IMG/VR virus record: IMGVR_UViG_3300020438_000249
Coordinates: 1 to 25,432 of that record
Length of the DNA: 25,432 bases
Direction: 5' to 3' (one strand)
From: a virus
Position 1 is the stretch's first letter; each line of letters starts with the position of its first letter. The notes under the pieces were generated by a model, which was not told where the DNA came from, made no database searches, and saw only the letters and a program-made list of their open reading frames with translations. The translations under genes and the position numbers were made by a program. Positions 1,169 through 25,432 of this stretch are shown here, piece by piece.

Positions 1169-1171
1169 AAA

Positions 1172-2614: not shown

Positions 2615-2620
2615 TGCTTA

Positions 2621-5502: not shown

Positions 5503-5510
5503 TATTTATA
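5503..5510 (-). promoter_or_regulatory. T4-type late promoter TATAAATA upstream of the 112-residue protein gene
   Basis: The minus strand reads TATAAATA at 5510-5503, an exact match to the T4 late-promoter box recognised by the gp55 sigma factor with gp33 and the sliding clamp. It overlaps the stop codon of the upstream 66-residue gene and lies 22 nt before the ATG at 5480-5478. From T4 practice, initiation would fall about 6 nt downstream, giving a leader of roughly 16 nt. It would drive the 112-residue protein, the fibre, gp13, gp14, gp15 and beyond. The surrounding DNA is AT-rich, so chance occurrence is possible. The intergenic position and the matching box at 14607-14600 argue for function. 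Confidence 0.75.
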
Positions 5511-5706
5511 ATCTTTTATTTAACACTTCATATAAAAGAGATTTTATTTCATCAATATCAGACCGTAGACGTTTAATCTCCTCTTCTTCAGTTAATTTTT
5601 TGTTTTTTAACTGAAGATATTGGCGATACCCTTGGTTATCATGATTTATAATAGCACCAGAATCTTCATCTCTATAAAGATTCTTATGCCCTTCAACTGG
5701 TATCAT
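5506..5706 (-). CDS. Small coiled-coil virion-cluster protein, 66 residues
   Basis: The N-terminal half, MIPVEGHKNLYRDEDSGAII, continues to QGYRQYLQLK. The C-terminal half (about residues 38-64) is highly charged, with a heptad-like pattern (KLTEEEEIKRLRSDIDEIK, then SLLYEVL), predicting a short coiled coil. Proteins of this size with an IPVEGHxNLYRDExxGAI opening occur in the same position in T4-like marine phages; none has a function that I know of. It overlaps the preceding DUF4815 gene by one base (TAATG at 5708-5704), so it is probably translated by coupling and may act with that protein, for example as an assembly factor or small baseplate component. The late promoter of the next gene overlaps its stop. 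Real gene: high confidence; function: unknown. Confidence 0.85.
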   Translation of the reverse strand: MIPVEGHKNLYRDEDSGAIINHDNQGYRQYLQLKNKKLTEEEEIKRLRSDIDEIKSLLYEVLNKRL

Positions 5707-8700
5707 TATGCTAAAGCAATTACTCTTAAATCTTGGAATCTAGGAGGATCTGCTTCATTTGTTCCACTTATAACAATTTTAATTTGGAATCCAGTAAATT
5801 CATCTAAATTATTAGCAGTAAATTCATAATCTAAGAATTGATTTTCTTTACTTGCAATAACAGGTACATCTGGTTTTCCACTATTCTTACCAGGATCAAT
5901 GACTTGTTTTTCAATATCTAAATCTCTTAGATTATCAAATCCAGGGAATAAATCATATGTTTGTTCAACTTCAGAAGAATCTGGTTTGAATAGTCTATAA
6001 AGAACTCTAAAGTCTGATGTTGGTCCTCTGTAAGCACCAACTAAAACTTTTAATGAAGTTGATGGATTTGCTAAATTAACTCTTTGTGAAATGTAACAGG
6101 CAGCATGTGGATCTCCTGTAATCTGCCTTACTCTACTATCTACAGTGTAGTCAGATACTGGATTATTTAATCTATTTCTTAAGAACCAGAGTGATCCATT
6201 CATAGTATCAACAACTGGCGATAAGTTAGAATCGGCACTAGTTAATGATGCTACTAAAGTAACAGATTTATTTCTAGGCAGATTCTGCAATCTAAGTTGC
6301 TCATCAACTTCTGAACAAAGAAGACGAGGTGAAGATAATCTATTCAGTTCATTAAATTCAACACTGGTGTATCCCATGTCATTGAATGATGCTTCAGATC
6401 CTCCTTCACTTGTTCCTGATACTGATCTTAATTGTGCAGTAATACCTGTACCAGATCCAGGAGTTAATACATTAAATGATGGCATAAATGCATCATATTG
6501 GAAATTCTTAGAGACCAATGCAGACGATCCACCACCAAATCCTTCATCAGTAAAACTTAACTGATTTATACCAGTAGATCTATCGGGTAGATTTGTTCTT
6601 CCTGTTCTCTTTGCTTCCAAGAAGTAAGAGTCAATTGTTTTATTTGCATTTAATGTAGCATTAGTTGGCATATCATGAACAGTATTGATACCTACTAAAG
6701 AAATACCATTAAGTTCATATTTAAAGACCTGATCACCTATTGTATGAGTACTTTGAGAAGTACCACCAAATGCTCTTGTTCCTATAGTTAAACCATCGGT
6801 AGTTATAGCACTATAATATATAATCTCATCTCCAACCTTTACATAACCTTTAGTTGTTGCTATTCCTTCTGATGTAGTAAACGTTGAAGTATTACCAGCA
6901 CCAACAGTAATTGATGTGCCATCAGAGGCTAAATCAGCAGTCAAATTAACTGGAATAGTATTTGGTGCAAGATTTTTAACACTAACTCTATTACTTGTAG
7001 AAACCATACTGTGGTTGTATTGGTTAACCTCAAATACATTACCACTATAAAGATCACTAACAACTGCAGAACTTGCTATTACTGTAGTTCCCACACCAAC
7101 TGAATAAGTTCCATCTGGTCTTTCAACTATTAACTCATTACCATTCGTAAATGATTCACCTTGAACATCAGTTAGATATAATACATTTAAATGATGATTG
7201 GCAGTAACAGTTAGTGTAGCATCTGAACCTTTCTTATCAGTGCCTAAACTCTCAGTCGTAAATCCAATAACATCACCAACAACATAACCAGTTCCATTTG
7301 TAGTAATAACTGCATTATCTACACCACCACTAGCATTTGTTGTAACAACACCTATAGCACCAGATCCTTGACCAGATATATTGTACATAGGTACGCCAGT
7401 GTATGTTGAACTTGGTTTAAATCCAGTTCCAACGCCACTAAGACTCACAGATGCAATATCACCACCAACTTGTTCAAAGTATCCATTTGCGTCTGCAGGA
7501 ACACCTGATCCAGAACCACCACCCCAAGCACTAAATCTAGTTTGTGGTTTGAAATCAGCAATTGCCATAGGTGCATCAACATCAACATTAGAGAATCCTA
7601 CACGCAACTTTCTTGGATATGTTTTTATAGGATTACTTTGAGGCATTTCTAATATCTGCTTCATATTTGATCCTAATGCAGAATTATAAAATGTTAAATC
7701 AGCATTTGTGTTTTTGATAAATGAACACTTATACAGACTAAATTTAAGATCTTCAAATTGACTTGGTGACCAAATAGTTCCGTTTTGAGACTTAAATAAA
7801 CTTCCACCAAGATATTGTTTACTAATTATTGCCTGACTTCCTTCACCAAGAGCAACAGTTTCTATGGTTGCCTCACCCATTCTAGCAACCCACAACTTAT
7901 ACTTCGTAGTACTTGGTGCTAAAATAACTACTGCATATTCCTTACGTGCTTCCAAATAAATTGGAGAAGGGAATGTAACTCTTGTTGGAAGAGAAGCATC
8001 TGTCGAAGTTTTAATAATAGAATCTCCATTAGCATCTAATTGAGAAGGATCTAAATCAACTTCAGAATAATCTGCCACTAGTTGATTAGTTGGTGTTCCT
8101 AATTGAACATCTCTTATTTGAATAGTTATTTTTTGTACAGGATCCTTTTCAGCAAAATATAAATCTAATTCTGATAAGAAAGCACCTGTTTCATCAACAG
8201 TAAACGATTGTGCCAATGGATCATCATATTCTGGTTCTGGTCTTGGACGTTCCCTAATGATGGTTGTAGTCCTTGTATAGGTGTCTACAATACCATTAGT
8301 AGTATATGTTTCTTGACCACGAGTTATACCTGCTGAAGTATCTTCATCTCCAGGTAATGGATTAGCATTTGTCTCACTAGATGTTAATCTAAAGGTTTTT
8401 GCTCCATTTTCAAATCTCAATCCTGGTGTACTACCCCAAATTAAAGTATCACCAGCATATGGATTTCTAATAAAGAATGAACCCAATACATTTCCAAGAT
8501 TATCAGCAATTAGTCTAATATTAGAAATTGTAGCAATTGCACCGCTAGATTTTCCAACTAGTTTTAATCCAGTTTGAACTCTTCCATAATACGATCCTTG
8601 AGCATCTTTTGCTAAAGCATTAGTATCAACATTTAAAATAGTAGAAGATTCGGTATAAGCGGATGAAAGATTAACAGAAGTATCATATGGATTAGTCGTA

Positions 8701-11700
8701 AATGTAGTATCTGGACTATTATAAGAACCACTTCTATGATTTGCTTGAGCAGTTCTAAAGGTTATTAGACTAGTACCATCAGATAAAGTTCCCTCAACTT
8801 CTTCTCCAACCACAAATGACCCAGAAGTCATTGTAATTTCAAGTAGTTTTGGAATTATATCAACATTAGATCTTCCAGCAAAGAATGGGTAATATCTTGT
8901 ATTTGGTTTTAATCCGAATGTATTAAATGCAACATTTCGGGATCTCATGAATGTATCAGCTACACTACTTGTTAAAACAACATCTAAAGTTGTTCCTGCT
9001 GTATCACCAAGAGTAGTAACTTCTTCGTCAATATTTTCAGTCCTAACCCAAGTATCTGAGGATGGATTTAGTTTCATCCTACCTCTGAAAACCACTACCT
9101 CAAATGGATTAACGTTCTCAATTCTACTTGCGAATGTATTTTGAATCCAAGAAATTGAATCATACTTTAATGTAATTAAATCACCAGTTTTTTGACAATT
9201 AGAATCTAATAAATCTAAATTGGTACTAAAATCTGCAGTCCCATAATTAATTGATGGATTTAAACCCAATTCTGGAGAGTTAGTCCACTTATTCAATGGA
9301 ACAACCATTTCATCAGTATTAGTATCAATATCAACTCGACAATCTAAATTAGATCTATCCATTCTAAGAGTATCTTTGAAGTCATCTACAAAGAATCCAG
9401 ACTTGAATCTATCACCAGTAGCGTCTCTAACTTGTAAAGACTTAGTGCCAAGTTCAAGCATAGTTAAACTTGTAACTATTTCTAAATTTGTTACTCTCTT
9501 ATCAATTTTTCCAATATCTCTCATTGTATATCTCTTATTATCGATAAGAGATATTTTTGCATCTTTTGGATTATACAAATATGCAGGTAAATGAATTGTT
9601 GCAACATGCATTGCATCATCAATTAATAAAGGTTCTTTAGGTGATAAGTTTGGAACACCTTTAATTAATGAATATACTCCTAAATTTTCTTCTCCAGGAG
9701 TAAGAACTAACTTATCAATTCTTGGTAAATACCAACTATATCCTAAAGTAGAATCAGCTTCAGGTGATACAACTAAAGTTGATGTTGCACCACTATTACT
9801 AAAATCTCTACTTGTAAATGCAAATGGTGATTTATTTGTATCAGTAAATTCAGATACTCTTGGTCTAAAATCAAGTGTATCAGTTGCTCTTACACCATTA
9901 CCTAAAGTAGGAATATCATAGGTGTATCTATCTTTAGTATATGAATTAGCAGTAAATACATCTCCAGTATCACTAGATGGGACAGTAAAATTATCATAGA
10001 TTACCAATAACTCTCTAGATGGTGCTGCAAGATTTCTCTTTCTTACCAATCGTGAATAGTCATAAAACTGTTCTCTTTGACCCTTATCTAAAGTATACCT
10101 ATTTGTTATATTTAAATAATTACCTAAAGTTACATTTTGTAAAGTAGTAGAAATATTAGATTCGTCAAAAGTAATTATTTCTCCAAGAATAAATTTATTA
10201 GCATTTAAATATGCTATTCCAATTGTAGTTGCATTATCTCTTGATACAATTTGAGCAACAGCATTACTCTCACTACCAGTAACCTTTTCTCCAACTACTG
10301 AATTTACATCTAATCCAAGTCCAGAAATAAAGACCAATTTATCTAATGTAGGACTTGTTGTATCCTTAGATTCAAGAACAGAAACAACATTACATACATC
10401 AGGAACATTCAAAGATATTTCTTTATCTTGTACTCTTAATCCATAGAAATTACTAGTTGTTAATCCACTAATATTAGTACTAATACCTGAAGATTTATTA
10501 ACAACAAGTTGAGTACTTCTATTAAATTCTTTAAGTTTATCTTTAATTGATTGTTTTTCTATAGTAACATTAACGGTACATGCAGTATTACTTAAACCAT
10601 TGAAAGTAACTCTACTACCATTTTGTTGTCTAGTAAATTGATCACTTGTTAAATTCTCTATACTTCCATCACTATAACTAATTGAATATTTTTGAGTATC
10701 AAAGTTACTAAAAAATGCACTAGTTATTCCAGTTATATCCGTAACATTAACAACTAATGAACCACTGGATGGAGTTTTATTTAATACTTGAGCAGATATT
10801 TCTAATTCTGAAGATGATAAATCAACCGCAGAAACATTAGGTATATCTAATACAGAATAAAGACCAGACTCTTGATTATCTATTATCTGAGGTCTTACTA
10901 TAGAAAGAGCAACTCCTGTAGAAACTCCTACAAATCCAGTTGTAATTCCAACTACTTCAGGAACTCCTGCTACAGTTAATGTCTTTTTATCTGGAGAGAC
11001 ATCAGTAACTTTATTGAGGTTTGGTGAAGTATATGCAACACCTGCAACAGGACTTGCTGTATACTTAACTATTGATCCTACTTTAATATCATTAAAAGTA
11101 TTTCCTGGCGACACTATAGTACCACTCATAGCTTTATGAACACCAGTACCAGTAGGATCTACATTAACTGTAGCATTTGCAGCCCATCCTGGAACAGAAG
11201 ATTCTCTTAAAACAGTATTAGCAGAGAAATCAGCAGCAATTCCTGTAAATGAACTAGAATCCTGATATACAGATTTTATATCATTTGTTTCATACTGTCT
11301 AACAGCAGTAATAGATCTACTAAATTCTTCTTTTTCATTAATTAAAATTCTTTCTCCAACAAGAAATGTTCCTGAAGTTTGTGACAATTTAAGAGCAGTT
11401 GTTCCACTTGCTGCAACTTGTAAATATCCTGTAGCATCACTACTAACACCACGAACAAATGTACCAATAGGAGCCTGATTGGCATTTAATGATACTCCAA
11501 TTGTTAATGTAGTATATGTTTGAACATCAAATAAATATAAATCCCATTCACTAGCAGCATTTTGATATGGAGTATTTCTAAGTCCAAATGAATATACTCT
11601 CGCAACACCAATTTCTGTGCCAGATGCTGATGTAGGACTTGTTCCATCCTGTTTCACATCACTTTGCAATTTAACTAAATTAGTAGCATTATTTAAACCA

Positions 11701-12929
11701 ACAAAAGGTGTTCCACTTACATTATCAACCCTAATTAAAGAACCTAGTTCATAATCAAGTTTTGCAGATTCTGCAGATTCGGTATCTCTAGGTTTGTCAA
11801 AATCTAAAATTTCACCACCTGGTCTAACAACACGATACCCTTTAACGTATGCTGTTATAGGATCAATATCAACACAACCCAAACCTTCACTTGGAACATT
11901 TCCTTGTTCAGTAATTTGATTTGATTTGTAAACACCATCACTAGTTATTAAATCATTTAAAGAATTTAATACATTAAGTCTAGCATTACCTAATGAATAA
12001 TTTCCAGATTCTTCATAAGTTCTTGCTGCAAAATACTTATTAATTTCGTTATATATTGAAAAATCTTGTACTTTCTTTAATTCACCTTCCCTAAGTTTAA
12101 TTATTTCAATGAAATTAGTATCGTTAAAATCTGTAAGAGATTTTTTTGCTAGTGTAGTAGTAATTTTTAATCTATCTGCACCTGGAGCAGCATAGTTAGA
12201 GAATCCCCTAGCATTATCATATAATTGTGGATCATCTTTTGCAGTAACAATAGTTTCTAAAATATTTAATCCAACTCTATAACTTGGAGTATTATCATAT
12301 GGATCTAGAATTATAGTATCTGCAGCAACATCTACAAAAGTTCCTCTAATAAAATAAACTCCAGCAGACATTTTAACTGCACTACCAACTGCAGTTGCAC
12401 TAGATTCTATTAAATTAGCTACACTATCCCCACTACTAATAGTAGTATTTCCATAAACAATATCTTCTTCAGCAAGTAAAGGTTCACCATCACTTAAACC
12501 TTGATCAACATTATTATTATCCGCAGTTAAATACTTAACAAAAAGAGTTAAGTCTGTAATATCATCAGAATCCGATACTAATTTACAATCATTAACTAAA
12601 ACTTTTACCCCAGAATTTTGCCCTTTTAGTTCTTTTCCTTTTAATTCTTTAACATATAAAGAAACTGGAAGACCAAGATGTTCTGAATCCAACTTAACAG
12701 CATAATATTTGTCATCATATATTACACTTCCAGGAATGACTAATGATCCTTCCTTGAATATATGAGTTCCAAATGAATCTATTTGATTCTGTAGGATTGA
12801 TTGGAGAGTTGTTAGTTCTCGTGCTTGGACAGGTCTTCCTGGTCTAAATAAAACCTTGTAAAAATTATCTGCCGTGTCAAAGTCATCATAATATGGACTT
12901 ATATCTAAATTAGTTTTCTGTAATGACAT
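5706..12929 (-). CDS. Giant DUF4815-domain virion structural protein, 2407 residues
   Basis: The N-terminus, beginning MSLQKTNLDISPYYDDFD and continuing NFYKVLFRPGRPVQARELTTL, then FKEGSLVIPGSV, is the hallmark of the DUF4815 family, large structural proteins of T4-like marine phages. The following few hundred residues contain family-typical stretches such as CVDIDPITAYVKGYRVV. The long middle is a mosaic of beta modules: SGTFLVGERI, VGEKVTGSESNAVAQI and GSFVVGEEVEG (F.xGE modules), a GxGY pair near residues 1825-1880, and VGDEIIYYSA with TRAFGGTSQSTHTIG near 2000-2070. The C-terminal 200 residues (NGSLWFLRNRLNNPVSDY; GFDNLRDLDIEK; EFTGFQIKIVISGT; FQDLRVIALA) form a separate conserved-looking end domain. 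The gene lies 3 nt after gp8, in the interval where T4 has gp9-gp12, so it probably forms the outer baseplate or a baseplate-fibre connector. There is no frameshift across 7.2 kb. The molecular role is unproven. Confidence 0.9.
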   Translation of the reverse strand: MSLQKTNLDISPYYDDFDTADNFYKVLFRPGRPVQARELTTLQSILQNQIDSFGTHIFKEGSLVIPGSVIYDDKYYAVKLDSEHLGLPVSLYVKELKGKELKGQNSGVKVLVNDCKLVSDSDDITDLTLFVKYLTADNNNVDQGLSDGEPLLAEEDIVYGNTTISSGDSVANLIESSATAVGSAVKMSAGVYFIRGTFVDVAADTIILDPYDNTPSYRVGLNILETIVTAKDDPQLYDNARGFSNYAAPGADRLKITTTLAKKSLTDFNDTNFIEIIKLREGELKKVQDFSIYNEINKYFAARTYEESGNYSLGNARLNVLNSLNDLITSDGVYKSNQITEQGNVPSEGLGCVDIDPITAYVKGYRVVRPGGEILDFDKPRDTESAESAKLDYELGSLIRVDNVSGTPFVGLNNATNLVKLQSDVKQDGTSPTSASGTEIGVARVYSFGLRNTPYQNAASEWDLYLFDVQTYTTLTIGVSLNANQAPIGTFVRGVSSDATGYLQVAASGTTALKLSQTSGTFLVGERILINEKEEFSRSITAVRQYETNDIKSVYQDSSSFTGIAADFSANTVLRESSVPGWAANATVNVDPTGTGVHKAMSGTIVSPGNTFNDIKVGSIVKYTASPVAGVAYTSPNLNKVTDVSPDKKTLTVAGVPEVVGITTGFVGVSTGVALSIVRPQIIDNQESGLYSVLDIPNVSAVDLSSSELEISAQVLNKTPSSGSLVVNVTDITGITSAFFSNFDTQKYSISYSDGSIENLTSDQFTRQQNGSRVTFNGLSNTACTVNVTIEKQSIKDKLKEFNRSTQLVVNKSSGISTNISGLTTSNFYGLRVQDKEISLNVPDVCNVVSVLESKDTTSPTLDKLVFISGLGLDVNSVVGEKVTGSESNAVAQIVSRDNATTIGIAYLNANKFILGEIITFDESNISTTLQNVTLGNYLNITNRYTLDKGQREQFYDYSRLVRKRNLAAPSRELLVIYDNFTVPSSDTGDVFTANSYTKDRYTYDIPTLGNGVRATDTLDFRPRVSEFTDTNKSPFAFTSRDFSNSGATSTLVVSPEADSTLGYSWYLPRIDKLVLTPGEENLGVYSLIKGVPNLSPKEPLLIDDAMHVATIHLPAYLYNPKDAKISLIDNKRYTMRDIGKIDKRVTNLEIVTSLTMLELGTKSLQVRDATGDRFKSGFFVDDFKDTLRMDRSNLDCRVDIDTNTDEMVVPLNKWTNSPELGLNPSINYGTADFSTNLDLLDSNCQKTGDLITLKYDSISWIQNTFASRIENVNPFEVVVFRGRMKLNPSSDTWVRTENIDEEVTTLGDTAGTTLDVVLTSSVADTFMRSRNVAFNTFGLKPNTRYYPFFAGRSNVDIIPKLLEITMTSGSFVVGEEVEGTLSDGTSLITFRTAQANHRSGSYNSPDTTFTTNPYDTSVNLSSAYTESSTILNVDTNALAKDAQGSYYGRVQTGLKLVGKSSGAIATISNIRLIADNLGNVLGSFFIRNPYAGDTLIWGSTPGLRFENGAKTFRLTSSETNANPLPGDEDTSAGITRGQETYTTNGIVDTYTRTTTIIRERPRPEPEYDDPLAQSFTVDETGAFLSELDLYFAEKDPVQKITIQIRDVQLGTPTNQLVADYSEVDLDPSQLDANGDSIIKTSTDASLPTRVTFPSPIYLEARKEYAVVILAPSTTKYKLWVARMGEATIETVALGEGSQAIISKQYLGGSLFKSQNGTIWSPSQFEDLKFSLYKCSFIKNTNADLTFYNSALGSNMKQILEMPQSNPIKTYPRKLRVGFSNVDVDAPMAIADFKPQTRFSAWGGGSGSGVPADANGYFEQVGGDIASVSLSGVGTGFKPSSTYTGVPMYNISGQGSGAIGVVTTNASGGVDNAVITTNGTGYVVGDVIGFTTESLGTDKKGSDATLTVTANHHLNVLYLTDVQGESFTNGNELIVERPDGTYSVGVGTTVIASSAVVSDLYSGNVFEVNQYNHSMVSTSNRVSVKNLAPNTIPVNLTADLASDGTSITVGAGNTSTFTTSEGIATTKGYVKVGDEIIYYSAITTDGLTIGTRAFGGTSQSTHTIGDQVFKYELNGISLVGINTVHDMPTNATLNANKTIDSYFLEAKRTGRTNLPDRSTGINQLSFTDEGFGGGSSALVSKNFQYDAFMPSFNVLTPGSGTGITAQLRSVSGTSEGGSEASFNDMGYTSVEFNELNRLSSPRLLCSEVDEQLRLQNLPRNKSVTLVASLTSADSNLSPVVDTMNGSLWFLRNRLNNPVSDYTVDSRVRQITGDPHAACYISQRVNLANPSTSLKVLVGAYRGPTSDFRVLYRLFKPDSSEVEQTYDLFPGFDNLRDLDIEKQVIDPGKNSGKPDVPVIASKENQFLDYEFTANNLDEFTGFQIKIVISGTNEADPPRFQDLRVIALA
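9528..9554. repeat. Inverted repeat (10-bp arms, 7-nt loop) inside the DUF4815 gene
   Basis: The arms ATATCTCTTA (9528-9537) and TAAGAGATAT (9545-9554) are perfectly complementary around a 7-nt loop. On the plus strand a run of Ts (9554-9558) follows, giving a terminator-like shape for plus-strand transcripts. On the coding minus strand the hairpin is preceded, not followed, by such a tract, so it does not resemble a terminator for the phage operon. It encodes KISLIDNKRYTM in the DUF4815 protein. Confidence 0.5.
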
Positions 12930-12932
12930 GTT

Positions 12933-14579
12933 TTAAAATTCCAGGATAACCTTGATGTCTTCTTTTTGTCTTGCATCTCTACTGATTAATGGTCTATTAT
13001 CCAGATAGATTATATCACCCGACTCATTATTTATCTCAGAACTAGCGATGCCATCTGTAAATTCAGCACCTAGTTCAACAATTTTATTTCCAGTAGGATT
13101 AGTAGTAATTCCAGAGAAAATTGTATTAATTCCAACAGACCATCCACTACCACCTTCTTGCTTAACAAGTTCGGTAGCAGATGATTGGAAATTATAAATT
13201 GATCCTGAAGAATTAGCTAATTCTGTAATACCACTTCTATCAGTTTGATCTCCAGTTGATTGGTTGAAATATAAAGATCTATCTTGATAATACTTTATAA
13301 CAGCAATCTTTGGAGTATCTTCCGATATAATATCATAAGATACAACATATGCTCTTGCTTGACCCACTGTAGTATCACCAGATTTAATATCTTGGGTCAT
13401 AATATCCCCAACATTAATAGTGGTAGCAGATGGAAAATCATCCAAATACAATGAAGATACTGAAGAAAATTGATTTTCAGTAAATAACTGTGTAGATCCA
13501 ATAGATGTTGGATTTTTTACAATACCAATTTGAGCAAATTTAGTATCAATTGGAAAATCCTTTGTAGAATCATCAAATCTAGCATATACTAAAATTCTAT
13601 CTGCACCCAATTCCTTATATAAATCATACCCATGACCTTTTGATGGTGGTATAATTGGAATTAATTTTGCAGGAGTAGCTCCACTTAATGCGGAAGATGA
13701 AATACTACTTAAATCAACCATTCCATAAGTATATCCTTTACCACCTACAGAAACTTGTGTTTTAGTTATTTTAGTATTAACAACATCAACAACAACTTTA
13801 CCACCTGATCCGTCACCAACAATATTAAATTCTTGACCAGTGCTACCAGCATATCCATTGCCTTGATCTGCAATGAATACATTTTTAATTTGGTTGTTAT
13901 TTACATCAGAATTACCATTATCTCTAACTGCTGTTATTTGAGCGTTAGTAGATGATGACCAATCATTAGGAAGAGGTACAAATTCAGTTGCATCAAACTT
14001 TATAATATCACTTGGAGCGACTGTAAATAGATACTTCCAAATATAACCATCATCAGTATCACCAGATGCTCTGGTTGGTTCTAATCCTGTAAATGTTGGT
14101 TCATTCTGAGATCTACTTCCTTCAGTGTTAATTCCACTTGATCCATTTTGAATACAAACATAAACATTAAAATCTTTATTAATTACAAAATAATTAGCAT
14201 CATATAACCTAGCAGAATCAGTTACAGGAGACTGATTAGTAGAACTATAATCCTGACGATATATTTCATACCTAGTTCCACTAGCCCAACTTACTTTTCT
14301 AATAACTCTTCGTATATTATCCGTACTAATCTTTTTACCAAAGACCATCGTATCTTTAGAATGATTTAAATAATTAATATCATCAGTTGGATTTGGTGGA
14401 CTAGAATTCCAAGCACTATCACTAGTTGCTCTACCAAATGCTGGAGTTGTACCACTAAGAGTAATACCTGGATTTGATAGACCTACAAACACATAATAAG
14501 AATTTGAGGTGTCATTAACATCCCCCAAAAAATTACTAGCATTATTAATTCTAAATTGATCTGTTACAATAGCCGCCAT
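12933..14579 (-). CDS. 8: Baseplate wedge protein gp8
   Basis: gp8 is a dimeric component of each baseplate wedge that joins gp7 and gp10 in T4. The opening AAIVTDQFRINNASNFL matches T4 RAIVTSKFRTEKMLNF; YYVFVG (28-33) and PPNPTDD (61-67) match the next conserved positions. GDTDDGYIWKYLF (173-185) parallels T4 EPGDGYVWEYLF, and the C-terminus SGDIIYLDNRPLISRDARQK (519-538), ending EDIKVILEF, parallels T4 GEMIYMENRPPIIMAMDQ and its EEINILFTF end. At 548 residues it is much longer than T4 gp8 (334). The extra sequence includes two GxGY motifs (NGYAGSTGQ near 241; GKGYTYGMVDL near 280), a segment HGYDLYKELGADRILVYARF (316-335) and a stretch resembling F.xGE modules (INVGDIMTQDIKSG). It is preceded by a late promoter and has no clear Shine-Dalgarno sequence. 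The DUF4815 gene follows after 3 nt. Confidence 0.95.
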   Translation of the reverse strand: MAAIVTDQFRINNASNFLGDVNDTSNSYYVFVGLSNPGITLSGTTPAFGRATSDSAWNSSPPNPTDDINYLNHSKDTMVFGKKISTDNIRRVIRKVSWASGTRYEIYRQDYSSTNQSPVTDSARLYDANYFVINKDFNVYVCIQNGSSGINTEGSRSQNEPTFTGLEPTRASGDTDDGYIWKYLFTVAPSDIIKFDATEFVPLPNDWSSSTNAQITAVRDNGNSDVNNNQIKNVFIADQGNGYAGSTGQEFNIVGDGSGGKVVVDVVNTKITKTQVSVGGKGYTYGMVDLSSISSSALSGATPAKLIPIIPPSKGHGYDLYKELGADRILVYARFDDSTKDFPIDTKFAQIGIVKNPTSIGSTQLFTENQFSSVSSLYLDDFPSATTINVGDIMTQDIKSGDTTVGQARAYVVSYDIISEDTPKIAVIKYYQDRSLYFNQSTGDQTDRSGITELANSSGSIYNFQSSATELVKQEGGSGWSVGINTIFSGITTNPTGNKIVELGAEFTDGIASSEINNESGDIIYLDNRPLISRDARQKEDIKVILEF

Positions 14580-14599
14580 TTTCTATAGCTTTTTTTCTT

Positions 14600-14607
14600 T
14601 ATTTATA
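14600..14607 (-). promoter_or_regulatory. T4-type late promoter TATAAATA upstream of gp8
   Basis: The minus strand reads TATAAATA at 14607-14600, within the 33-nt gap (14612-14580) between the giant gene and gp8. It is an exact copy of the T4 late-promoter box. The ATG of gp8 begins 20 nt after the box, so with initiation about 6 nt downstream the leader would be roughly 14 nt. The leader is A-rich (an AAAAAAAG run, then CTATAGAAA) with no Shine-Dalgarno sequence. Spacing to the start codon is almost the same as at the second promoter (5510-5503). It would serve gp8, the DUF4815 gene and the 66-residue gene. Confidence 0.8.
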
Positions 14608-14612
14608 CTAAT

Positions 14613-17600
14613 TTATGCAGGATCATTTAATGCACCAGTATTTCTAATACCAACATTCCTTCTTTGGACTCTTGGGAAGGTTGTTAATCCTACGTTAACA
14701 GTCTTAGAGGTTACTCCAATTGATATTGGATTAGAACTTCTACTGATTCCTGATAATCTACCCCAAGAGAAATTACCAGATCCTTCACCAGTTGTTCCTA
14801 TACCTATTATGCTAGTTGAATTTGAATCAACATCTGCAATAAAGTCTGCCCTATTTGAAGATCTATTAATAGATCTAACATAATATATATTATCCAAATA
14901 TGTGGTACCAATTCCCACAACTGCAGCATTGCCGCCAGGTGCAGTTCCATCTATAGATGTCACTCCAGTTCCAATTGAAGTATTATAAACATAAATTGGA
15001 TACCCATTTACTAAAGTTGTAAAATCACCAGAGTCTTTCTCAAGGAAGAACTTAAGTGCTAAAGTTCCTGTACCACCACTTCCAAATGCTGTTGATATTC
15101 CAGTAACTATTCCAGAGAACCCTTGAATAGCAGCAGGTGCAATATTAGTAACAGTTTCTTTAGGAAGCACTGGAAGAGGAGCAATAACTTCAGGTTCTTG
15201 TCCACTAACATATCCAAGACCAGGATTTGTAATATGGATTGAAGCAATAGATCCATTTGTTATTGTGGCAGTAGCAGTAGCAGTAGTTCCTACACCTGCA
15301 GCAATCTTTATTCTTGGTGCAGATAGTGATACTGGAACTGTAGTAGTACTAAATCCACTTCCACCACTAACAATTGTAATAGAACTAACAGTACCACCAG
15401 CAGAAACATTAGCAGTAAGTGCAGCTCCTGTTAATGTTTGATTCTCATTAACTATAAATGCTCCAATATTTTTATTCTCATAATCAAATAATTCAGTAGA
15501 ATCTAAGAAGATTTCTGTATCTGTAGTTGTTAGATCACCAATTATTCTTGCATTAGGGAATACTAATGGTTCAATAGAAGGTCTTGATTTAGAAACAATA
15601 CTACCGTTGATAGTCTTATCAACTTTTTGCTTTAACCAAGTTAATGGTCTAAGGGTATCTTCATCAATACCTCTACCAAAGTATAAATTAGTTTCAACTT
15701 GATCTGAAGTTGATATTCCACTAATTGTTCTTCTGTCCTGATTAACACTTCCAGTAAGATAATTCTTCTTATTAACTTCTACATCATCACCAGATTTTAA
15801 TGTTTCAACAACATCAGTGAAAGTAACATCTACACCATTAGTTCCTTTGTAGAAGAAAATAGCTACGTCATCATATTGGTCAGGTGCTTCAGTAAATATA
15901 AAACTAGTTCCTCCCCCAAAGATATATGCTTCACCTGGAACTTGTAAAACACCATTAACAAAGATCAATAAAAGTGCTTCTAAGTCTATGGAAGCATCAT
16001 CACCTCTTTGGAATGATACTAATTCTCCATCAAAGTTTAATGGGAATCTTTTTCTAACTCCATCTTGAAGTTTAGCAATATCATCAATATAATCAAATTC
16101 TCCAACATTCCAAGAAGAGAATGTGTCTGTAAAGACTTGATTAACACTAAATTCTAAAGGTGTTAAAAGAGAAGAGAAATATCTATCAGTTACTATTCCA
16201 AGAGGTACGAAAGTATCTCCCTTTCTAAATCCAAATCCAGATCTAGATATACCAAAATCTTTAACTTCATAAGAAATAGAACCTATTCCAGTTGTAGAAC
16301 TGGCACCAACTTTAAGATCTAATCTAAGTGCAGTTCCTGTTTCTGTGGTTGACCCTAATCCCAATCTTGTCAATCCTTGAATATCAAGATTTTCATATGC
16401 AGGAGATGGTGTTAAAATTCTTGGATTAACATATCCAGCACCACCATCACTAATAGTCATCTTTAATCCACCACCACTATGAGCAGGTGATTTACCAACA
16501 TTTAAAGTGAATGAAGTTGTAGTACCTACAGATTCAACACCTATTGTTGCCTTATATGCAGGATCAGATCCTGGATTTTCTTTATTCTGTCTAGGATATG
16601 AGTGGTTACTAGTATTATTATCCTGATCACATGTAAATGTAAATGCATTTGTAGAAATTGCTACAACATTATTAGCTTTTAGTATACCTGAAGAAGCTGC
16701 TGATACAAATGTATGATCTTTTGTATTAGTTGAAGGTACTGAATCTAAAACTTGAATTGCGAACGTATTAACAGTTGTGCTTGCAATTGATACCCACTTA
16801 TTAAAAATTGGATCCGTTGATCTTGGGTATGGATGTTGAGTTTGATTACCATCAAGTTCACACGTGAATGTTAAAGAGTTTTCCTCAATCTTAACATAGT
16901 TTCCAACAAAGTACCCATGATTACTGGCAGTTGTAATTGTTATAATACCAACTGTTGGATTATATACAGCAGCTGTTGCTGTTTGGAAACCAGCAGCACT
17001 CATACCATGAGCATTATCTACAGTAACTGTTAGAATACCACTTACTGGATCATATGCATTACCCAATCCACCTATTGAATATGGACTATAATAAGTTGTA
17101 TCATCAACTAATATAGAACTTGATAGACCACTTACATAAGTATGGGCATTTCCCTGTATAACAGTAGCAGTTATAACAGCACCAGTACCTCCACCACCAG
17201 CAGATCCAACACCAACTGTAATAGAATCCGAAGTCGCAGTCTTAATATTCAACCATTCACCATTAGCTTCATCAGTTAAACGTGGATAATATTGTGTGCT
17301 TTGGAAATAATCACTAGAGCACTTAAATGCCATAGAAGTAGTTGCAATACCAACAGTATTTGCAGATCTCTTAATAGAATTTGGAAGTGCACTTACCCAA
17401 GCATGTGTAGTAGTATTTGAAGAAGGAGTATATTCAAGAACATTTATTTCAAAGGTATCACCACCACTTACTGCTGTAATAGGAACCCATCTATCAGACA
17501 TATAATCTGTAGATCTTGGATAAGGGTGATTAGATGCATTACTATCTTCAGCACAGGTGAATGTTAGTCCACCATCAGTGATATTGACTATTTGACCAAC

Positions 17601-20600
17601 TGCAAGTGCTGGACTTGGTGATGCAGTTAATTTAACAGTTAATATACCTACAGTTCCATCATAGAAAGTTCCAGTAGTTGCTGTATATGAATCTGATGTT
17701 ATAAGTCCATGACTATCTTTAATTAATGTTAATTGTCCACTGTCAGACTTAAAGGTTGCATCCGTAGGTGTAAATGTTGCATACGCACCAATACCATTAG
17801 GATTAACTGTAATTGAATTAACACCAGCACTTATAAATCTATGCTCATAAGCTACGTCTGTTACCCCAATAGAAACACTACCTTCAAAACTATATCCAGA
17901 TCCTTGGAAATCAGTAGAACCAATTCCAACACCAGTAATAGTTCCTACAGTGTTAGTAACAGCAGTTGAAGAAGCACCAACTAAAGGAGCAATACCAAGA
18001 CCACCACTAGAACCAATTGATACAATTTGCCCAGATCTTGGTAGTTGGTTTTGATTTATCATATCATCACGAACAACAAGTGCACCATTTGTGGAGGTAA
18101 TTCCACTAAAGACGAAACTAGTAACTCCTACTGTGCTATTTTCTATAAAATCATAATTATTAAGTGGATTTTGTTCGGTAGTTGGTCTCTGGAACATTCC
18201 ATTTACTGTGAGGAAAGTACTTCCTGTAGTAATACCTGCAGTATTAATGCCACTAACCAGAGTTGTAAAGGTTTGAGCAATTCCAGTAAATTCATTTGAT
18301 ATATCATCATATATCTTATTAAGACGATAATCTTGTCTTAAATAAACTCTACCACTAAAGGATGATCTACCTGTATCACGATTAGATCTATCTTTTGATG
18401 TATCGTTTGAACCTCTTGGTGCCTCACTAAAGTAAATTCTTTCACCAACAATATTATATCCACCCTTATACAATCTAACAGTATCACCATCATCATGAAT
18501 TGTTGCCGCAGTTCCAACAAAACCTCTTTCAACTTCAATCATCTTCAAAGATCCTGTTTCTGTTATAGGACCTTTGTTTGTTATTCCTAATCCAACATTT
18601 TTTACTTTAACAAATTCCTTACCACCTGATCCATTGTCTATTTCTAAGATATCATTAAGAAGTATAGAAGAAATACCAACAAGAGTGATTATATCTGTAG
18701 AAACACCTACTTGACCATTTACATTACCCGAAAGTTTGGTCGTAATTGGAGAATATGCTACAGGTGATTGAATTACATTATCTAAAGTAATCAAAGTCTT
18801 TGAGTTCTTCTTGAACATCTCAAATCTATGATAGTTACCAGTACCAATTCCCATTGGAGCATTATATGGATAATCAATAAATGTTACTGCTGCCCCTGCT
18901 ACACCATTTGAATCTCTAGTAAGAGATAGTTGGAAATTATCTGAAGTTGTTAAACTAGATTTAATGTAAACTTCCTCTGGTAATGGATTTCCATTAGACA
19001 TCAATAAACGTCCAGTACCAATACCTTCTACAGAAGATCCTGGAGTGTAAACTAGTCTCTCATCAGCATTAAAGAAGTTGTTAGGGAAATTAAATGTTCC
19101 TGTACCAGGAGTGAAGAAATCAGTATCAGAAGGATCAAAATATCTTGCGAAAATTGGCAACCCATCATGCTTTAATACAAAATTTCTATTATCAGATCTA
19201 CTACCATTTAATCCATCATACTGTAAAAGTGATAGTTGATCTATTGCAGGACCATATGTGTGGTCAGGAGGAATATTAATTAAATCAAATCCAGAATTAA
19301 TAACTTCACTATAAGTTTGTACTTGTATTTCGCCAGATGCATCTGGATGGAATACCAATTCAAAATCATTTCCATTTAATTGAGCAGTAAATGTTCCAAG
19401 ACCAATATTTCCAGAAGTGCTACCAATGGATATAAATGGATACTGCATATAGAGTGCATCAGTAGTATCATGTGCCATTATCACTTGATGAATAGCACTT
19501 GTATTTCCTATAGAGACCCTTATTATATTACTTGCACTAGAAACTGTATTTTTATCAAATTCAAGAATTGTTGCAGCAGCAGAAACTCTATTATATGAAG
19601 ATTGTACCCTTAATGACCTTTCAGACCCTGCTGGTTGAGCAGATGTATTAAATCTATATGTTCCTATACCTGCTGTAGTTGTTCCAATTCCTACAATTTT
19701 AGATTTAACTGAAACTGAATTAGCAGTGATATCATTTTCAAATTTTAATGATAAAACACCAGAATCAATACTTGAGGTAAATGTACCTATAGCATCAGTG
19801 GTATTAGTTTCAAAATCATAACTTGAAATATATGAATTAGTTCCATCATGAGTTACATAAAGTTCAGTAATCTTATTTGTATTAGCAAAAGTGTCATTTA
19901 CTTCTATAGATGCAAAATATGCATCTATTTCGCCAATATTAGCAGATGCCATAACAGAAGTAGTTGGTCCTAATGCAGTACCTGCACTAACCTCTTCACT
20001 AAATCCTTCTAAACTAATAAAACCAAAACTAGTTGTTCCTATTCCAGTTCCAACAATAGAAGTCTCATATACCTTTATATTAAGATCAGTAGAGTAAATA
20101 TCCGTTGGTTCAAATTTTAAAGAATAAAGATCGTTATAATCTCTGTCTCCAATAATATTTACAAGACCCGTTTTATTATCAACAACTTGATTTCCAAATA
20201 AAGATCCTTTTTGAATTGTGTAAACATTCTTATTTGTAAAGTCTACAGTGGTAAGTACTTCTGTAAGTTGAATACTATCCTTTGTGCGACCTCCTGCAAT
20301 AGATGTAGGCACGGTTGCTTGTACTAAAAATCTACCATAAGTATTTGTAAGTTCTAATTTACCATCAGTTTTAATATTATTACTTGCATTAGAAAACTGC
20401 GTATTAATATTGTCAATTGTTAGAGCATTATTAGTCTCACATTTAAAGTAATTTACAAGTTCTCTAGTGCTAAATCTAATATATTTTGATCTTTCAGGAT
20501 TTGTAAGAGTATCGATATCAGAAACAAGATCAAAATCTTTAATAGCATCAACTCTTTTATCTGATGTTAGATCACGTATTATTGATGTTGAATCAGCTGA

Positions 20601-23600
20601 AGTTGATAATCCAGAAGATGTAGTAGAAGTAATACCAGTATCAGCAAAATTCTTAAGTCCTGAAGTATGAAGTAATCTGTTAACTGGACTTACTAATGCT
20701 TGATATTCAATTGGACTTTGAATAGTGTATGATAAATTTTGATAATAATCATTATCTGGAATAACTTGGAAGTCATCATCCAATTTTCCAGTATTTGTAA
20801 ACCAACCTTTAGTCTTTTTAGATGAATAGTCAACTTTAAATTCCCCTTTGTTTGGGTATAAAGTATTAATAGTAGCTATAGATCCAGTATAAGTTCCTTT
20901 AATTTTTTCATTTACCTTAAGATCATATTTACCAATTACCTTAATATAATCATTAGAAATTTTATCTAATTTAAGACCAACATCTTGATATTCATTATTA
21001 GCATCTAATACAAATATAGTTTCACCTTCAATAAATGGTGCTGCCTCTTGAGTAAGTGTAAATACAGGAAATTTCTTCTTATTAACAATAGAAGCAAAAG
21101 TTTGATTTGTTTTAGCAAGACCTGGATTATTTGCAATATCTTTTATATTAAATTCAAATTGATAAGGATTAAGACCCAATGCTGATGGTCTGCTTATATA
21201 AGTGTTAGTTACAGTAAAGAATCTATATCCATTATTTGCAGAGTTAAAAGTAGTTCCATATTCATTTTCAAATCCTTCTACAAAAATTTCATCACCTATT
21301 TTAAATGGATCTGTTGTAAATCCAACGATTGGAGTTCCTAAAGTAACTGTTACAATTCCACTTTGAGTATTTGTAACTATAGTATCACCAATTGCTACGG
21401 AAGTAACAGAAACACCATTGGTATTATCAACAGTTAATATTTCAGGAACATTTAATCCTTTTGGTGCAGATATAATATCAACACTTTCAATTGCTTGTGT
21501 TGATGGACTTACATTTGGTTGTAAGTATCCTGTAGTATTAACTTCTCTAGTAAGTTTATCAATTATGACTAATGTAGGATTAGCAACAAATCCTTGGCCA
21601 CCACTAACAACATCTAAAGTCTTAAGTACGCCATAATCTCTTAAAGAAATTACTGGAGATAATCTTGCTATGGGCAATAAAGTTTTATCTGAAGCATACT
21701 CAAAACCAATGTTATTAATCTTAACATCTTTTATTTGATTAGAAGTAGATGATCTAGGTAATACCTCACCATTTGCTCCTTGAGTAGAAGCAATACTTAC
21801 AAATTTTGGCATTTGTTTGTATCCTACTCCAGCAAAATCTATCTTGATTTCACTTAAAGGTCCTCTTGCTGTTGGTGAATTTGTAGAATATTTAAAAGTA
21901 TCTGTAGTTGAAGAATCATAGCGAAGAGATTCTGGTTTTTTATCTAATTGAATAGTAAAGGTAGTGGTTCCAATACCAGCAACTGCATATGAACCTTCAT
22001 AATCACTATTAACATAAGTAACCCTAGATCCATTTTTAACATCAATATCAGATGTACTAATAAATCCAGATTTTTCTAGATTGTAGAATAAGTTAAATGG
22101 ATTGTCTTTATTATATTTCAATGTAACAGTCGCTGTTACTCCACTACCTACAGTACCATCCCTAGCAATACTAATTACATTTGAACTTCCTATAGATACA
22201 AATTTATTAACAAAATCATGATCATGATATAAATTAAAGTCATATCCAGATAAAGATGTGTCTGAAACATCAAATACTAGATTATTATCTCTTACGACAG
22301 GAATTGGTGGATTTATTAAAGACAATTCCTGTGCAGTACCACCAACAGATACTAAAGACTTAACTTGTGGTGGATAACTTATAGCATCATAATAGGTGTC
22401 TGCTAATTGAATCTTATTATCATCAATTCTATAAACAAAATATGATGAAGAAACAGTTAGTCCCTCAATTGCTGAAAAATCAGTAACACCAATACCAGTA
22501 TTATAAAATACCTTACTACCAGTTTCAAAATGATGAGAATTTATAGTTAAAATATCTGTAGATGTATTAACACCAGAAGATGTAAACAATACAGGATTAA
22601 CCAATAACTTTTCAGTTAATGCATTATATTTTAAGGTAATTCCTGCTGAAGTACCAATACCAACTGATTGATCAGGTTTTAATGATAATGTAATAACATC
22701 ATTACCTAAAAGATTATGATTTGTTGAAACTGAAACTGTTGTATCTATTTTTTCAACGGTTCCAGTTACTTGAGTAAAATTAGATTTGAAAATATATTCA
22801 AAACTATCAGTAGTAGCACTTAAGAAGAATAGTCCACCTGCGAGTGTTCCAGTTGTAGATCTTAAATCTGAAAGTTGAGTTGTTATTCCAATATAATCTT
22901 CGGATTTATTAATAGCATAAAGATTTTGACTAGTTCCAGAAATTGGTATACTATATCCAGAAACAACAGTTCCATTTGTTGAAACTCCAATATTACCACC
23001 ACTAGATGCTTTTGTAAGAGTTATTAATTGACCAGTCTTAAATGGATGCTTTGGTAAGTAAATGCTTTGAGTCGGAACAGAGACTTGACTAGCAGTTTCT
23101 CCTACAGAAACATATACTGACGTAGATACTCCAGCAACTCCTCCTAAACCAAAAGACTGCTTGGGATTGAAGTAAACAATATCATCTAACTTAGAATCAA
23201 AGTAAGTAGTTTTTACTGGTAATGTAATTGATCTTGGTATTGTGGTAACTTCAGTAGAAAGTGTATGAGCAATTCCAGTAATACCTCTCTTAACTCTTAA
23301 AATATTTCTATCTTCAAACTTATTAAGAACAGATAATGTTTCTGTACCTATACCAATAGTACTACCAACAGAAATTAAATCTGAAGTTCTACCAACGTAA
23401 ATATCAGTTATAATTCCTGCTGTTCCATTTAAAGCAACTTCTTTATAAAGAATTGTATTTTCTGTAGTAATACCTAATACATGATTTCCTGCAAGATTTT
23501 GAATAGCAGTTGATAATCCAGAAACTATAATAGGAGTATTAAGTGCTAATTCATGAGGTTCTGTAAAGTATGCAGATATTGTATTAGAATCTTTCCATGT

Positions 23601-25432
23601 AAATTGAACACCAGTAAATGAAGTGTATGTAGTTTCAATAAGCGATAACTCTGGACTATCTACAGATTTAACAACAGCAGTTAAACCATTTCCATTAGTT
23701 CCTGTATCATCAAAAACTAAACTATCACCAGCTTTGTAATTATCTCCAACTTTTATAATATCAAGAGATTCTACATCTCCCTGAGAAACTGCTTCTACAA
23801 CTGAAGATTGTGTAACAATATCGTCCGATTGTACAAAATATGTGGATGAGAATTTATCAGATGATTTATATGGGAAAGTATTTCTAACTAAATCCGAAGA
23901 ATTAAAATCAAATGATTGTGTAATTTCATCTTCTGCATCTAAAACTACAGGAAGTGACCTATAAGTATGTCCAATAAAATATGGGAAAACTGGTTCTAAC
24001 TTTCCATTAGAAGCAGTATTAACACCCACAAAATAAGCATATACTCCATCAGGGTATTGTGGTGTTATGCAATATCTACCATTATGCTCATCTAAATCAC
24101 CAGAAGCATCATAAGAATAGTCCTCTGCAAAAGTTCCTTCTGCAAAAGTCAATAGTGCTGGTCTATCTTCAACTTTAGAAGAATCTAAACTATAACTTGG
24201 TTTTAAAAGAGTAACATCAGAATTATCAAAAGCATCAGTATATCCATAAGGACCATATATTGGATTACCATCATAAGCCCACCCTATAATAGGCGAGTGA
24301 CTGCCTGTAAGATCTCCAAAGTATTCTTTACCTATATCAGTAGAATAACCTACTACAGAGTATCTAAGACCATGTACAGACTGTGTTATAACCTCATCAG
24401 TATATCTTGCAGTATATGGTCTTGTTGATTGTATACCACATAATGATAATTTTCTAATATCTGTGTCAAATATAGCATTCTTTCCTGCAGGAATAACTTT
24501 TATAGAAGTTTTATCCGTACTAAATCCTGCTCCCCCATTAAGTATTACAGTATCAACTATTCTTAAGTAAGTATCCGATCCTACATTTCTATCAATAATA
24601 GGTCTTATCTTAGCACTAAATCCATCACCCTCTACAGATAAAACTGGAGTAGAATAATATTCATTTCCACCAGAATCAATTCTAACTTTTACAACTTTTC
24701 CATTTTCAATAATAGGAACTAAAGCTGGAGTGATATCCTTATCACTTCTACCAAGACCATTCTTTAATAGTATTTCTGGTCTATTGTGATAGTTTATGAG
24801 AGTAGAAGAACCGTATGATGTTCCCTTTTCATAAAGGAAAGCATCTATTATTTTTCCATCAATAACAGGAGTTAATTTAACAGTCTCAGTTGTTATGCCA
24901 GTAGAATATATAACTTCTGCAGTAATTGTAATATCTGGATAGTTAAATGTCTGATATCCAGATCCCTTAGTCGTAAATTTCGTATAATTATTTTGATCAA
25001 AGTTAGTTGTTACAGTTCCACCTACTCCAGCATTTGCAATTCTAAATGAATTATCATTTAACTTAATTACCTTATATTCAATTGAAGTAGATAGTCCTGT
25101 AATATCAGTAGTTGTTCCACCAGAATAAACTATAGATTCTCCATTCTTAAATCCATGATTTTCAAAAGTAATTGTATCAGTATAAGTGGAAATACCAGTA
25201 GACTTAACATAAATTTTTCTGTTTGCATATTCATCACCTGGATCTACTACAGCAATAGAATTTAAAGTATTTTTAGCATTTTTAAGTGTAAACTTATGAG
25301 TTCCTGTTTTTGCTACATTAGTAAATCCTATTGTATTAATTCCAGCATTATAATCGGATTCATCTTTAAAAAGATAAACGCTACTTATACCAAGAACTTG
25401 AGGATAGTATACAGAACCATCTTCTAATGTTT
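14613..25432 (-). CDS. Giant YHYH-domain virion protein in the gp7 position, N-terminus outside the window
   Basis: The frame is open from the window edge to TAA at 14615-14613: 3605 complete codons, with the true start beyond 25432. A TTG at 24152-24150 is only an internal Leu. Counting from the first full codon (25430), residues about 325-480 form a YHYH-type domain, with HSPIIGWAYDGNPIYGPYG (378-396) and DLDEHNGRYCITPQYPDGVY (445-464); the YHYH tetrapeptide itself is not visible. The rest is a chain of beta modules: GxGY/GxGF units (VILNGGAGFST; VVSGGQGFVANP; ITNPGLGYVSG), two VxRGxxGxxxxxH units (about 23264-23420 and 18465-18695), four Cys/YPR units (16440-17600), and two NGxxQxP units, LTVNGMFQRPT (about 18090-18350) and LIFVNGVLQVPGEAYIF (about 15800-16120). 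Its place directly before gp8 is that of the T4 wedge scaffold gp7 (about 1030 residues), but no gp7 similarity is evident by eye. A baseplate wedge or peripheral tail role is inferred. No signal peptide or membrane segment is evident. Confidence 0.9.
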   Translation of the reverse strand, partial: TLEDGSVYYPQVLGISSVYLFKDESDYNAGINTIGFTNVAKTGTHKFTLKNAKNTLNSIAVVDPGDEYANRKIYVKSTGISTYTDTITFENHGFKNGESIVYSGGTTTDITGLSTSIEYKVIKLNDNSFRIANAGVGGTVTTNFDQNNYTKFTTKGSGYQTFNYPDITITAEVIYSTGITTETVKLTPVIDGKIIDAFLYEKGTSYGSSTLINYHNRPEILLKNGLGRSDKDITPALVPIIENGKVVKVRIDSGGNEYYSTPVLSVEGDGFSAKIRPIIDRNVGSDTYLRIVDTVILNGGAGFSTDKTSIKVIPAGKNAIFDTDIRKLSLCGIQSTRPYTARYTDEVITQSVHGLRYSVVGYSTDIGKEYFGDLTGSHSPIIGWAYDGNPIYGPYGYTDAFDNSDVTLLKPSYSLDSSKVEDRPALLTFAEGTFAEDYSYDASGDLDEHNGRYCITPQYPDGVYAYFVGVNTASNGKLEPVFPYFIGHTYRSLPVVLDAEDEITQSFDFNSSDLVRNTFPYKSSDKFSSTYFVQSDDIVTQSSVVEAVSQGDVESLDIIKVGDNYKAGDSLVFDDTGTNGNGLTAVVKSVDSPELSLIETTYTSFTGVQFTWKDSNTISAYFTEPHELALNTPIIVSGLSTAIQNLAGNHVLGITTENTILYKEVALNGTAGIITDIYVGRTSDLISVGSTIGIGTETLSVLNKFEDRNILRVKRGITGIAHTLSTEVTTIPRSITLPVKTTYFDSKLDDIVYFNPKQSFGLGGVAGVSTSVYVSVGETASQVSVPTQSIYLPKHPFKTGQLITLTKASSGGNIGVSTNGTVVSGYSIPISGTSQNLYAINKSEDYIGITTQLSDLRSTTGTLAGGLFFLSATTDSFEYIFKSNFTQVTGTVEKIDTTVSVSTNHNLLGNDVITLSLKPDQSVGIGTSAGITLKYNALTEKLLVNPVLFTSSGVNTSTDILTINSHHFETGSKVFYNTGIGVTDFSAIEGLTVSSSYFVYRIDDNKIQLADTYYDAISYPPQVKSLVSVGGTAQELSLINPPIPVVRDNNLVFDVSDTSLSGYDFNLYHDHDFVNKFVSIGSSNVISIARDGTVGSGVTATVTLKYNKDNPFNLFYNLEKSGFISTSDIDVKNGSRVTYVNSDYEGSYAVAGIGTTTFTIQLDKKPESLRYDSSTTDTFKYSTNSPTARGPLSEIKIDFAGVGYKQMPKFVSIASTQGANGEVLPRSSTSNQIKDVKINNIGFEYASDKTLLPIARLSPVISLRDYGVLKTLDVVSGGQGFVANPTLVIIDKLTREVNTTGYLQPNVSPSTQAIESVDIISAPKGLNVPEILTVDNTNGVSVTSVAIGDTIVTNTQSGIVTVTLGTPIVGFTTDPFKIGDEIFVEGFENEYGTTFNSANNGYRFFTVTNTYISRPSALGLNPYQFEFNIKDIANNPGLAKTNQTFASIVNKKKFPVFTLTQEAAPFIEGETIFVLDANNEYQDVGLKLDKISNDYIKVIGKYDLKVNEKIKGTYTGSIATINTLYPNKGEFKVDYSSKKTKGWFTNTGKLDDDFQVIPDNDYYQNLSYTIQSPIEYQALVSPVNRLLHTSGLKNFADTGITSTTSSGLSTSADSTSIIRDLTSDKRVDAIKDFDLVSDIDTLTNPERSKYIRFSTRELVNYFKCETNNALTIDNINTQFSNASNNIKTDGKLELTNTYGRFLVQATVPTSIAGGRTKDSIQLTEVLTTVDFTNKNVYTIQKGSLFGNQVVDNKTGLVNIIGDRDYNDLYSLKFEPTDIYSTDLNIKVYETSIVGTGIGTTSFGFISLEGFSEEVSAGTALGPTTSVMASANIGEIDAYFASIEVNDTFANTNKITELYVTHDGTNSYISSYDFETNTTDAIGTFTSSIDSGVLSLKFENDITANSVSVKSKIVGIGTTTAGIGTYRFNTSAQPAGSERSLRVQSSYNRVSAAATILEFDKNTVSSASNIIRVSIGNTSAIHQVIMAHDTTDALYMQYPFISIGSTSGNIGLGTFTAQLNGNDFELVFHPDASGEIQVQTYSEVINSGFDLINIPPDHTYGPAIDQLSLLQYDGLNGSRSDNRNFVLKHDGLPIFARYFDPSDTDFFTPGTGTFNFPNNFFNADERLVYTPGSSVEGIGTGRLLMSNGNPLPEEVYIKSSLTTSDNFQLSLTRDSNGVAGAAVTFIDYPYNAPMGIGTGNYHRFEMFKKNSKTLITLDNVIQSPVAYSPITTKLSGNVNGQVGVSTDIITLVGISSILLNDILEIDNGSGGKEFVKVKNVGLGITNKGPITETGSLKMIEVERGFVGTAATIHDDGDTVRLYKGGYNIVGERIYFSEAPRGSNDTSKDRSNRDTGRSSFSGRVYLRQDYRLNKIYDDISNEFTGIAQTFTTLVSGINTAGITTGSTFLTVNGMFQRPTTEQNPLNNYDFIENSTVGVTSFVFSGITSTNGALVVRDDMINQNQLPRSGQIVSIGSSGGLGIAPLVGASSTAVTNTVGTITGVGIGSTDFQGSGYSFEGSVSIGVTDVAYEHRFISAGVNSITVNPNGIGAYATFTPTDATFKSDSGQLTLIKDSHGLITSDSYTATTGTFYDGTVGILTVKLTASPSPALAVGQIVNITDGGLTFTCAEDSNASNHPYPRSTDYMSDRWVPITAVSGGDTFEINVLEYTPSSNTTTHAWVSALPNSIKRSANTVGIATTSMAFKCSSDYFQSTQYYPRLTDEANGEWLNIKTATSDSITVGVGSAGGGGTGAVITATVIQGNAHTYVSGLSSSILVDDTTYYSPYSIGGLGNAYDPVSGILTVTVDNAHGMSAAGFQTATAAVYNPTVGIITITTASNHGYFVGNYVKIEENSLTFTCELDGNQTQHPYPRSTDPIFNKWVSIASTTVNTFAIQVLDSVPSTNTKDHTFVSAASSGILKANNVVAISTNAFTFTCDQDNNTSNHSYPRQNKENPGSDPAYKATIGVESVGTTTSFTLNVGKSPAHSGGGLKMTISDGGAGYVNPRILTPSPAYENLDIQGLTRLGLGSTTETGTALRLDLKVGASSTTGIGSISYEVKDFGISRSGFGFRKGDTFVPLGIVTDRYFSSLLTPLEFSVNQVFTDTFSSWNVGEFDYIDDIAKLQDGVRKRFPLNFDGELVSFQRGDDASIDLEALLLIFVNGVLQVPGEAYIFGGGTSFIFTEAPDQYDDVAIFFYKGTNGVDVTFTDVVETLKSGDDVEVNKKNYLTGSVNQDRRTISGISTSDQVETNLYFGRGIDEDTLRPLTWLKQKVDKTINGSIVSKSRPSIEPLVFPNARIIGDLTTTDTEIFLDSTELFDYENKNIGAFIVNENQTLTGAALTANVSAGGTVSSITIVSGGSGFSTTTVPVSLSAPRIKIAAGVGTTATATATITNGSIASIHITNPGLGYVSGQEPEVIAPLPVLPKETVTNIAPAAIQGFSGIVTGISTAFGSGGTGTLALKFFLEKDSGDFTTLVNGYPIYVYNTSIGTGVTSIDGTAPGGNAAVVGIGTTYLDNIYYVRSINRSSNRADFIADVDSNSTSIIGIGTTGEGSGNFSWGRLSGISRSSNPISIGVTSKTVNVGLTTFPRVQRRNVGIRNTGALNDPA
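16440..17600 (-). repeat. Four Cys/YPR coding repeats arranged as a duplicated doublet
   Basis: The giant protein carries four related units with an F(T/K)C start and a YPR motif about 10 residues later: FTCAEDSNASNHPYPRSTD, FKCSSDYFQSTQYYPRLTD, FTCELDGNQTQHPYPRSTD and FTCDQDNNTSNHSYPRQNK. Their Cys codons lie at 17555-17553, 17321-17319, 16862-16860 and 16631-16629. Spacings are 234, 459 and 231 nt, so units 1 to 3 are 693 nt apart and units 2 to 4 are 690 nt apart. This is a doublet copied once. The flanks agree: TVGILTVKL precedes unit 1 and TVGIITITT precedes unit 3, and THAWVSA and DHTFVSA follow them. Confidence 0.85.

Follow-up and report, generated by a model that had tools for sequence, protein, structure and literature searches.

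The stretch of DNA analyzed here (hereafter the window; 25,432 bases, the whole of virus record IMGVR_UViG_3300020438_000249) ends inside the gp7-slot baseplate-wedge gene of a T4-like, cyanophage-type marine phage, and the intact protein is 4507 amino acids long, a reading to which we assign a probability of roughly 95%. The window holds the C-terminal part of this protein on the minus strand, from 25430 to 14613, where translation yields 3605 sense codons followed by a stop; the 5′ end is missing at the contig end. Codons capable of initiation are sparse in this frame (14 ATG, 6 GTG, and 20 TTG per 3605 codons): no ATG, GTG, or TTG occurs before codon 427, which is the TTG at 24152, and ATG itself first appears in frame at codon 1207. 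A preliminary description of the sequence had reported that the first 426 codons lack a start and that the frame leaves the window, and its coordinates and counts are right. The window being the entire record, the giant frame runs off the contig itself; its start is missing for the simple reason that the sequence breaks off within the gene.

The complete gene is present in longer contigs. A DNA pattern scan of bacterial genome contigs located PCBP01000015.1, which, in the part fetched, matches window positions 11427–25432 at 99.9% identity (14,006 bases, 14 mismatches, no gaps) and extends 5.8 kb past the window edge. The gene order in this extension is a gp25-like gene (132 aa), a gp6-like gene, its TAA stop, a single T, and the ATG of the giant frame, with the gp25 and gp6 identities backed by family matches. 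Measured from the window edge, this ATG is 902 codons further upstream, and it opens an intact ORF of 4507 amino acids, 18 of them Met. The preliminary description had proposed extending the sequence past 25432 to look for a start after gp6, and had named a stop or frameshift just beyond that position as grounds for refutation; the extension found the ATG directly after gp6, neither a stop nor a frameshift was seen there, and both the truncation and the claim of a protein longer than 3605 residues stand. The same 4507-aa ORF is present in a second, independent contig from IMG/VR (L008), which shares 98.5% identity with 11,502 bases of the window; here too the ATG stands 902 codons upstream and one base past the gp6-like stop. 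Across the IMG/VR relatives with enough upstream sequence, the first ATG falls 872–921 codons upstream of the matching point (24/24). The startless frame is an effect of the contig end. In a fragment of this kind, automatic annotation could wrongly assign the start to the TTG. PCBP01000015.1, nearly identical to this phage, is filed in a Flavobacteriales MAG (NP1160), and could be either mis-binned phage DNA or a lead to the host.

The giant frame encodes the giant gp7-slot baseplate-wedge protein of cyanophage-type T4-like phages and is thus an ordinary representative of a family already known in cyanophages. Residues 1–2710 of the frame match positions 858–3490 of the 4179-position profile of phrog_2885 (baseplate wedge subunit) with 2456 bits, and the N-terminus that the window lacks is matched by the same family in L008 (residues 2–892 to positions 2–859, E = 1e-279). 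The gene lies between gp6 and gp8: PCBP01000015.1 places gp25 and gp6 on its upstream side, and in the window the next gene downstream encodes a gp8-like baseplate wedge protein (12933–14579, minus strand; PF09215, 1.8e-10; phrog_438, 1.2e-143). Using tblastn, relatives were found in 463 phage records, nearly all of them Synechococcus or Prochlorococcus phages, at identities below 60%. Isolate proteins in the same slot include P-SSM2 gp7 (5195 aa), syn9 gp101 (6076 aa), and those of ACG-2014f (4225 aa), S-SRM01 (3895 aa), and S-SSM6a (3007 aa). The exceptional size claimed in the preliminary description is therefore ordinary for the family, since homologs span 3007–6076 aa in isolates and a metagenomic contig has one of 7474 aa. 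This last frame, which follows gp25 and gp6 in the gp7 slot of NHFO01000063.1 (G002:C54 20824–43248; L172 12825 to L173 15249), exceeds the largest isolate member examined (6076 aa), and its phage contig is likewise filed under a Flavobacteriales MAG; NHFO01000009.1 and NHGE01000052.1 carry frames of 7476 and 7292 codons.

The 426-codon stretch without a start is real, but to be expected in a protein so poor in Met, which makes up 0.39% of the window frame. Using codon shuffling of the full-length L008 gene as the null, the longest start-free run (481 codons) compares with a shuffled median of 381 and a 95th percentile of 579 (p = 0.16), and the longest Met-free run (1366) with a median of 863 (p = 0.05). 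The lack of Met had been called unusual in itself; this does not hold, as low Met is a trait of the family (0.23–0.80% in isolates and the IMG/VR set, 1.0% in the 7474-aa relative), and relatives have stretches of 1787 and 1956 residues free of Met. It could still be argued that Met and start codons are missing through selection, against internal initiation or against sulfur use or oxidation, rather than by chance at low Met content. The low values across the family (0.23–1.0%, compared with 1.9% in T4 gp7) would fit this explanation, as would the lower Met content of P-SSM2 virion proteins relative to their T4 homologs, in a comparison which spans two genomes only. The start-free run, however, fits random placement, relatives do carry start codons in the same stretch, and fibrous T4 proteins are Met-poor as well (wac 0.62%, gp10 0.83%, gp34 0.93%), so that selection appears an unlikely explanation. 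The virion comparison is a lead rather than a result: the mean Met content is 1.53% in P-SSM2 and 2.29% in T4 (Wilcoxon p = 0.006; p = 0.009 without gp7), whereas the difference in non-virion, replication-type proteins is not significant (p = 0.34), for 18 virion and 12 non-virion genes.

A natural split of the gene, in which the N-terminus would come from a separate upstream gene by way of a programmed frameshift, an intein, or an intron, is very improbable. Broken copies do exist: S-SKS1 has four ORFs and an unannotated 7-kb stretch in this region (L030 9386–21772), and in L003 a net loss of 79 bp goes with a change of frame around position 3245. The breaks differ from case to case, however, and errors of sequencing or assembly could account for them; the frame is continuous from the ATG to the end of the overlap in PCBP01000015.1, and also continuous in L007, L008, P-SSM2, S-SRM01, and others. 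Initiation at TTG 24152, with the upstream open frame either non-coding or belonging to another protein, is scarcely credible: although this is the earliest start-type codon in the window, the unbroken frame with its ATG in the longer contigs already refutes such a start, the residues upstream are conserved among relatives (40–98% identity), a start there would split the YHYH domain (as the preliminary description had recognized in rejecting it), and the codon varies among relatives, reading TTA in L002 and L008 (the latter 98.5% identical) and ACA in L004–L007, and is therefore not a conserved start. By comparison with these relatives, the TTG (24150–24152, minus strand) is an ordinary Leu codon within the domain.

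That domain corresponds to the C-terminal half of Pfam YHYH (PF14240; profile positions 91–183 of 193, E = 2.1e-24) and lies at 24302–24018 on the minus strand, or frame residues 377–471, where it scores 87 bits against a curated cut-off of 25. A sequence match places its signature, HSPIIGWAYDGNPIYG, at frame residues 378–393 (24252–24299, minus strand). YHYH proteins have been predicted to be metal-dependent hydrolases on the basis of a histidine triad and an aspartate (PMC7824862); which histidines are meant was deduced here from conservation in bacterial sequences. Among 68 bacterial YHYH sequences, gathered by a pattern requiring A[FY]DG.PIYGP and so not an unbiased sample, conservation is 93–96% for the upstream GHP histidine and both HxH histidines, and 91% for the HSPIIG histidine. 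The half of the domain with HSPIIG and DG.PIYG is kept in all 28 motif-bearing gp7-slot copies (the window included, and some of them near-identical), whereas the GHP and HxH histidines, sought within 160 residues upstream, are absent from every one of the 28. Set against the proposed histidine triad and aspartate, the gp7-slot copies examined retain the HSPIIG histidine and the DG.PIYG aspartate and lack the GHP and HxH positions. Judging from these sequences, the copies embedded in the baseplate are probably without the proposed metal site, and because the upstream GHP and HxH histidines are missing, a hydrolase role for the embedded domain looks unlikely. If this result holds, it argues against naming these baseplate domains hydrolases. 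A stand-alone phage protein of 530 aa (L173 15258–16850), encoded beside the 7474-aa relative, keeps both GHP and YHYH.

Sites resembling T4-type late promoters occur in two intergenic gaps of the window. With the consensus from PMC2984593, one ATAAATA (in TATAAATA) lies between the giant gene and gp8 (14600–14606, minus strand), and a second lies in the gap before a 112-aa ORF (5503–5509, minus strand). Overall, the window has fewer copies of the motif than expected (4 found versus 20 expected).

The role of the protein in the baseplate may be sketched from its parts. The N-terminal ∼260 residues contain the sole segment of similarity to T4 gp7 and would act as the wedge anchor next to gp6. 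The remainder is a very long chain, poor in Met and Cys and beta-rich as far as modeled, with the YHYH half-domain near residue 1280. Both the position of the gene and virion proteomics of S-CREM2, in which the ORF after gp6 (77594–83407) yielded 91 unique peptides (PMC10665884, Table 3), point to a peripheral-baseplate role, the S-CREM2 protein (ORF122) being likened to the giant protein by its position after gp6. The long chain would probably make up an outer or peripheral baseplate region in contact with the host surface, and the YHYH unit, without its histidine-rich half, probably serves for binding or structure and not as an enzyme. An AlphaFold model of the N-terminal 420 residues of L008 has a pLDDT of 61.7; using Foldseek, it has no match in the PDB at E < 0.001, and its best match in a viral library is the homolog from Bellamy, a "baseplate wedge initiator." Prediction for the YHYH region (window 23571–24983, 14 sequences) gave no usable model (mean pLDDT 38.9), and no meaningful match emerged when PDB sequences were searched with the protein or with profiles of its N-terminus and of YHYH. 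As a tentative picture, to which we give slightly less than even odds, gp7 in marine T4-like phages could have become a fused giant arm of 3000 to ∼7500 aa, in which a small N-terminal wedge anchor is followed by thousands of beta-rich residues. Embedded among these would be a YHYH half-domain that, having lost its proposed metal site, acts without enzymatic activity in binding or as a structural element.

Comparison with known systems begins with the bacterial YHYH proteins (PF14240), which share the HSPIIG, D, PIYG, NGR, Y.Y, and FPY segments with the giant protein, but which differ in their conserved upstream GHP and HxH histidines, missing from all 28 motif-bearing gp7-slot copies. T4 gp7 (NP_049765.1, 1032 aa) occupies the same gene slot and has a short segment similar to the giant protein (T4 residues 730–790), although it is a quarter of the length, has no YHYH domain, contains 1.94% Met, and is alike over ∼60 residues only. 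Within this segment, T4 residues 730–758 match phrog_2885 positions 196–224 (E = 1.3e-4), phrog_26741 matches both T4 gp7 (664–759) and L008 (193–248), and hhalign aligns 61 columns at T4 730–790, a short and weak similarity (P = 1.7e-4, probability 49%). On this alignment evidence, homology of the giant protein to T4 gp7 is likely but not proven. T4 gp7 has been described as absent from cyano- and pelagimyophages, with VrlC in its place (PMC7029224); the T4 gp7-like segment sits in the giant YHYH family, which suggests that the gp7 remnant may be carried by this protein and not by VrlC. The window also encodes a 2407-aa DUF4815 protein (5706–12929), in the slot annotated as VriC/VrlC in S-SRM01, and it co-occurs with the giant YHYH protein (14613–25430).

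The closest parallels are with the isolate proteins annotated as baseplate wedge initiators. P-SSM2 gp7 (PSSM2_111, AAX44489.1; 5195 aa) is likewise encoded directly after gp6 and before gp8, is 37.5% identical over 99% of a 1810-aa query, carries the YHYH signature, and is Met-poor as here, although it is ∼690 aa longer than the 4507-aa form. The S-SRM01 protein (QPX48159.1; 3895 aa) is in the same slot and has the highest identity among the isolates (40.6%); it is ∼610 aa shorter than the 4507-aa form, and the Met-free run of 1956 residues is found in this protein.
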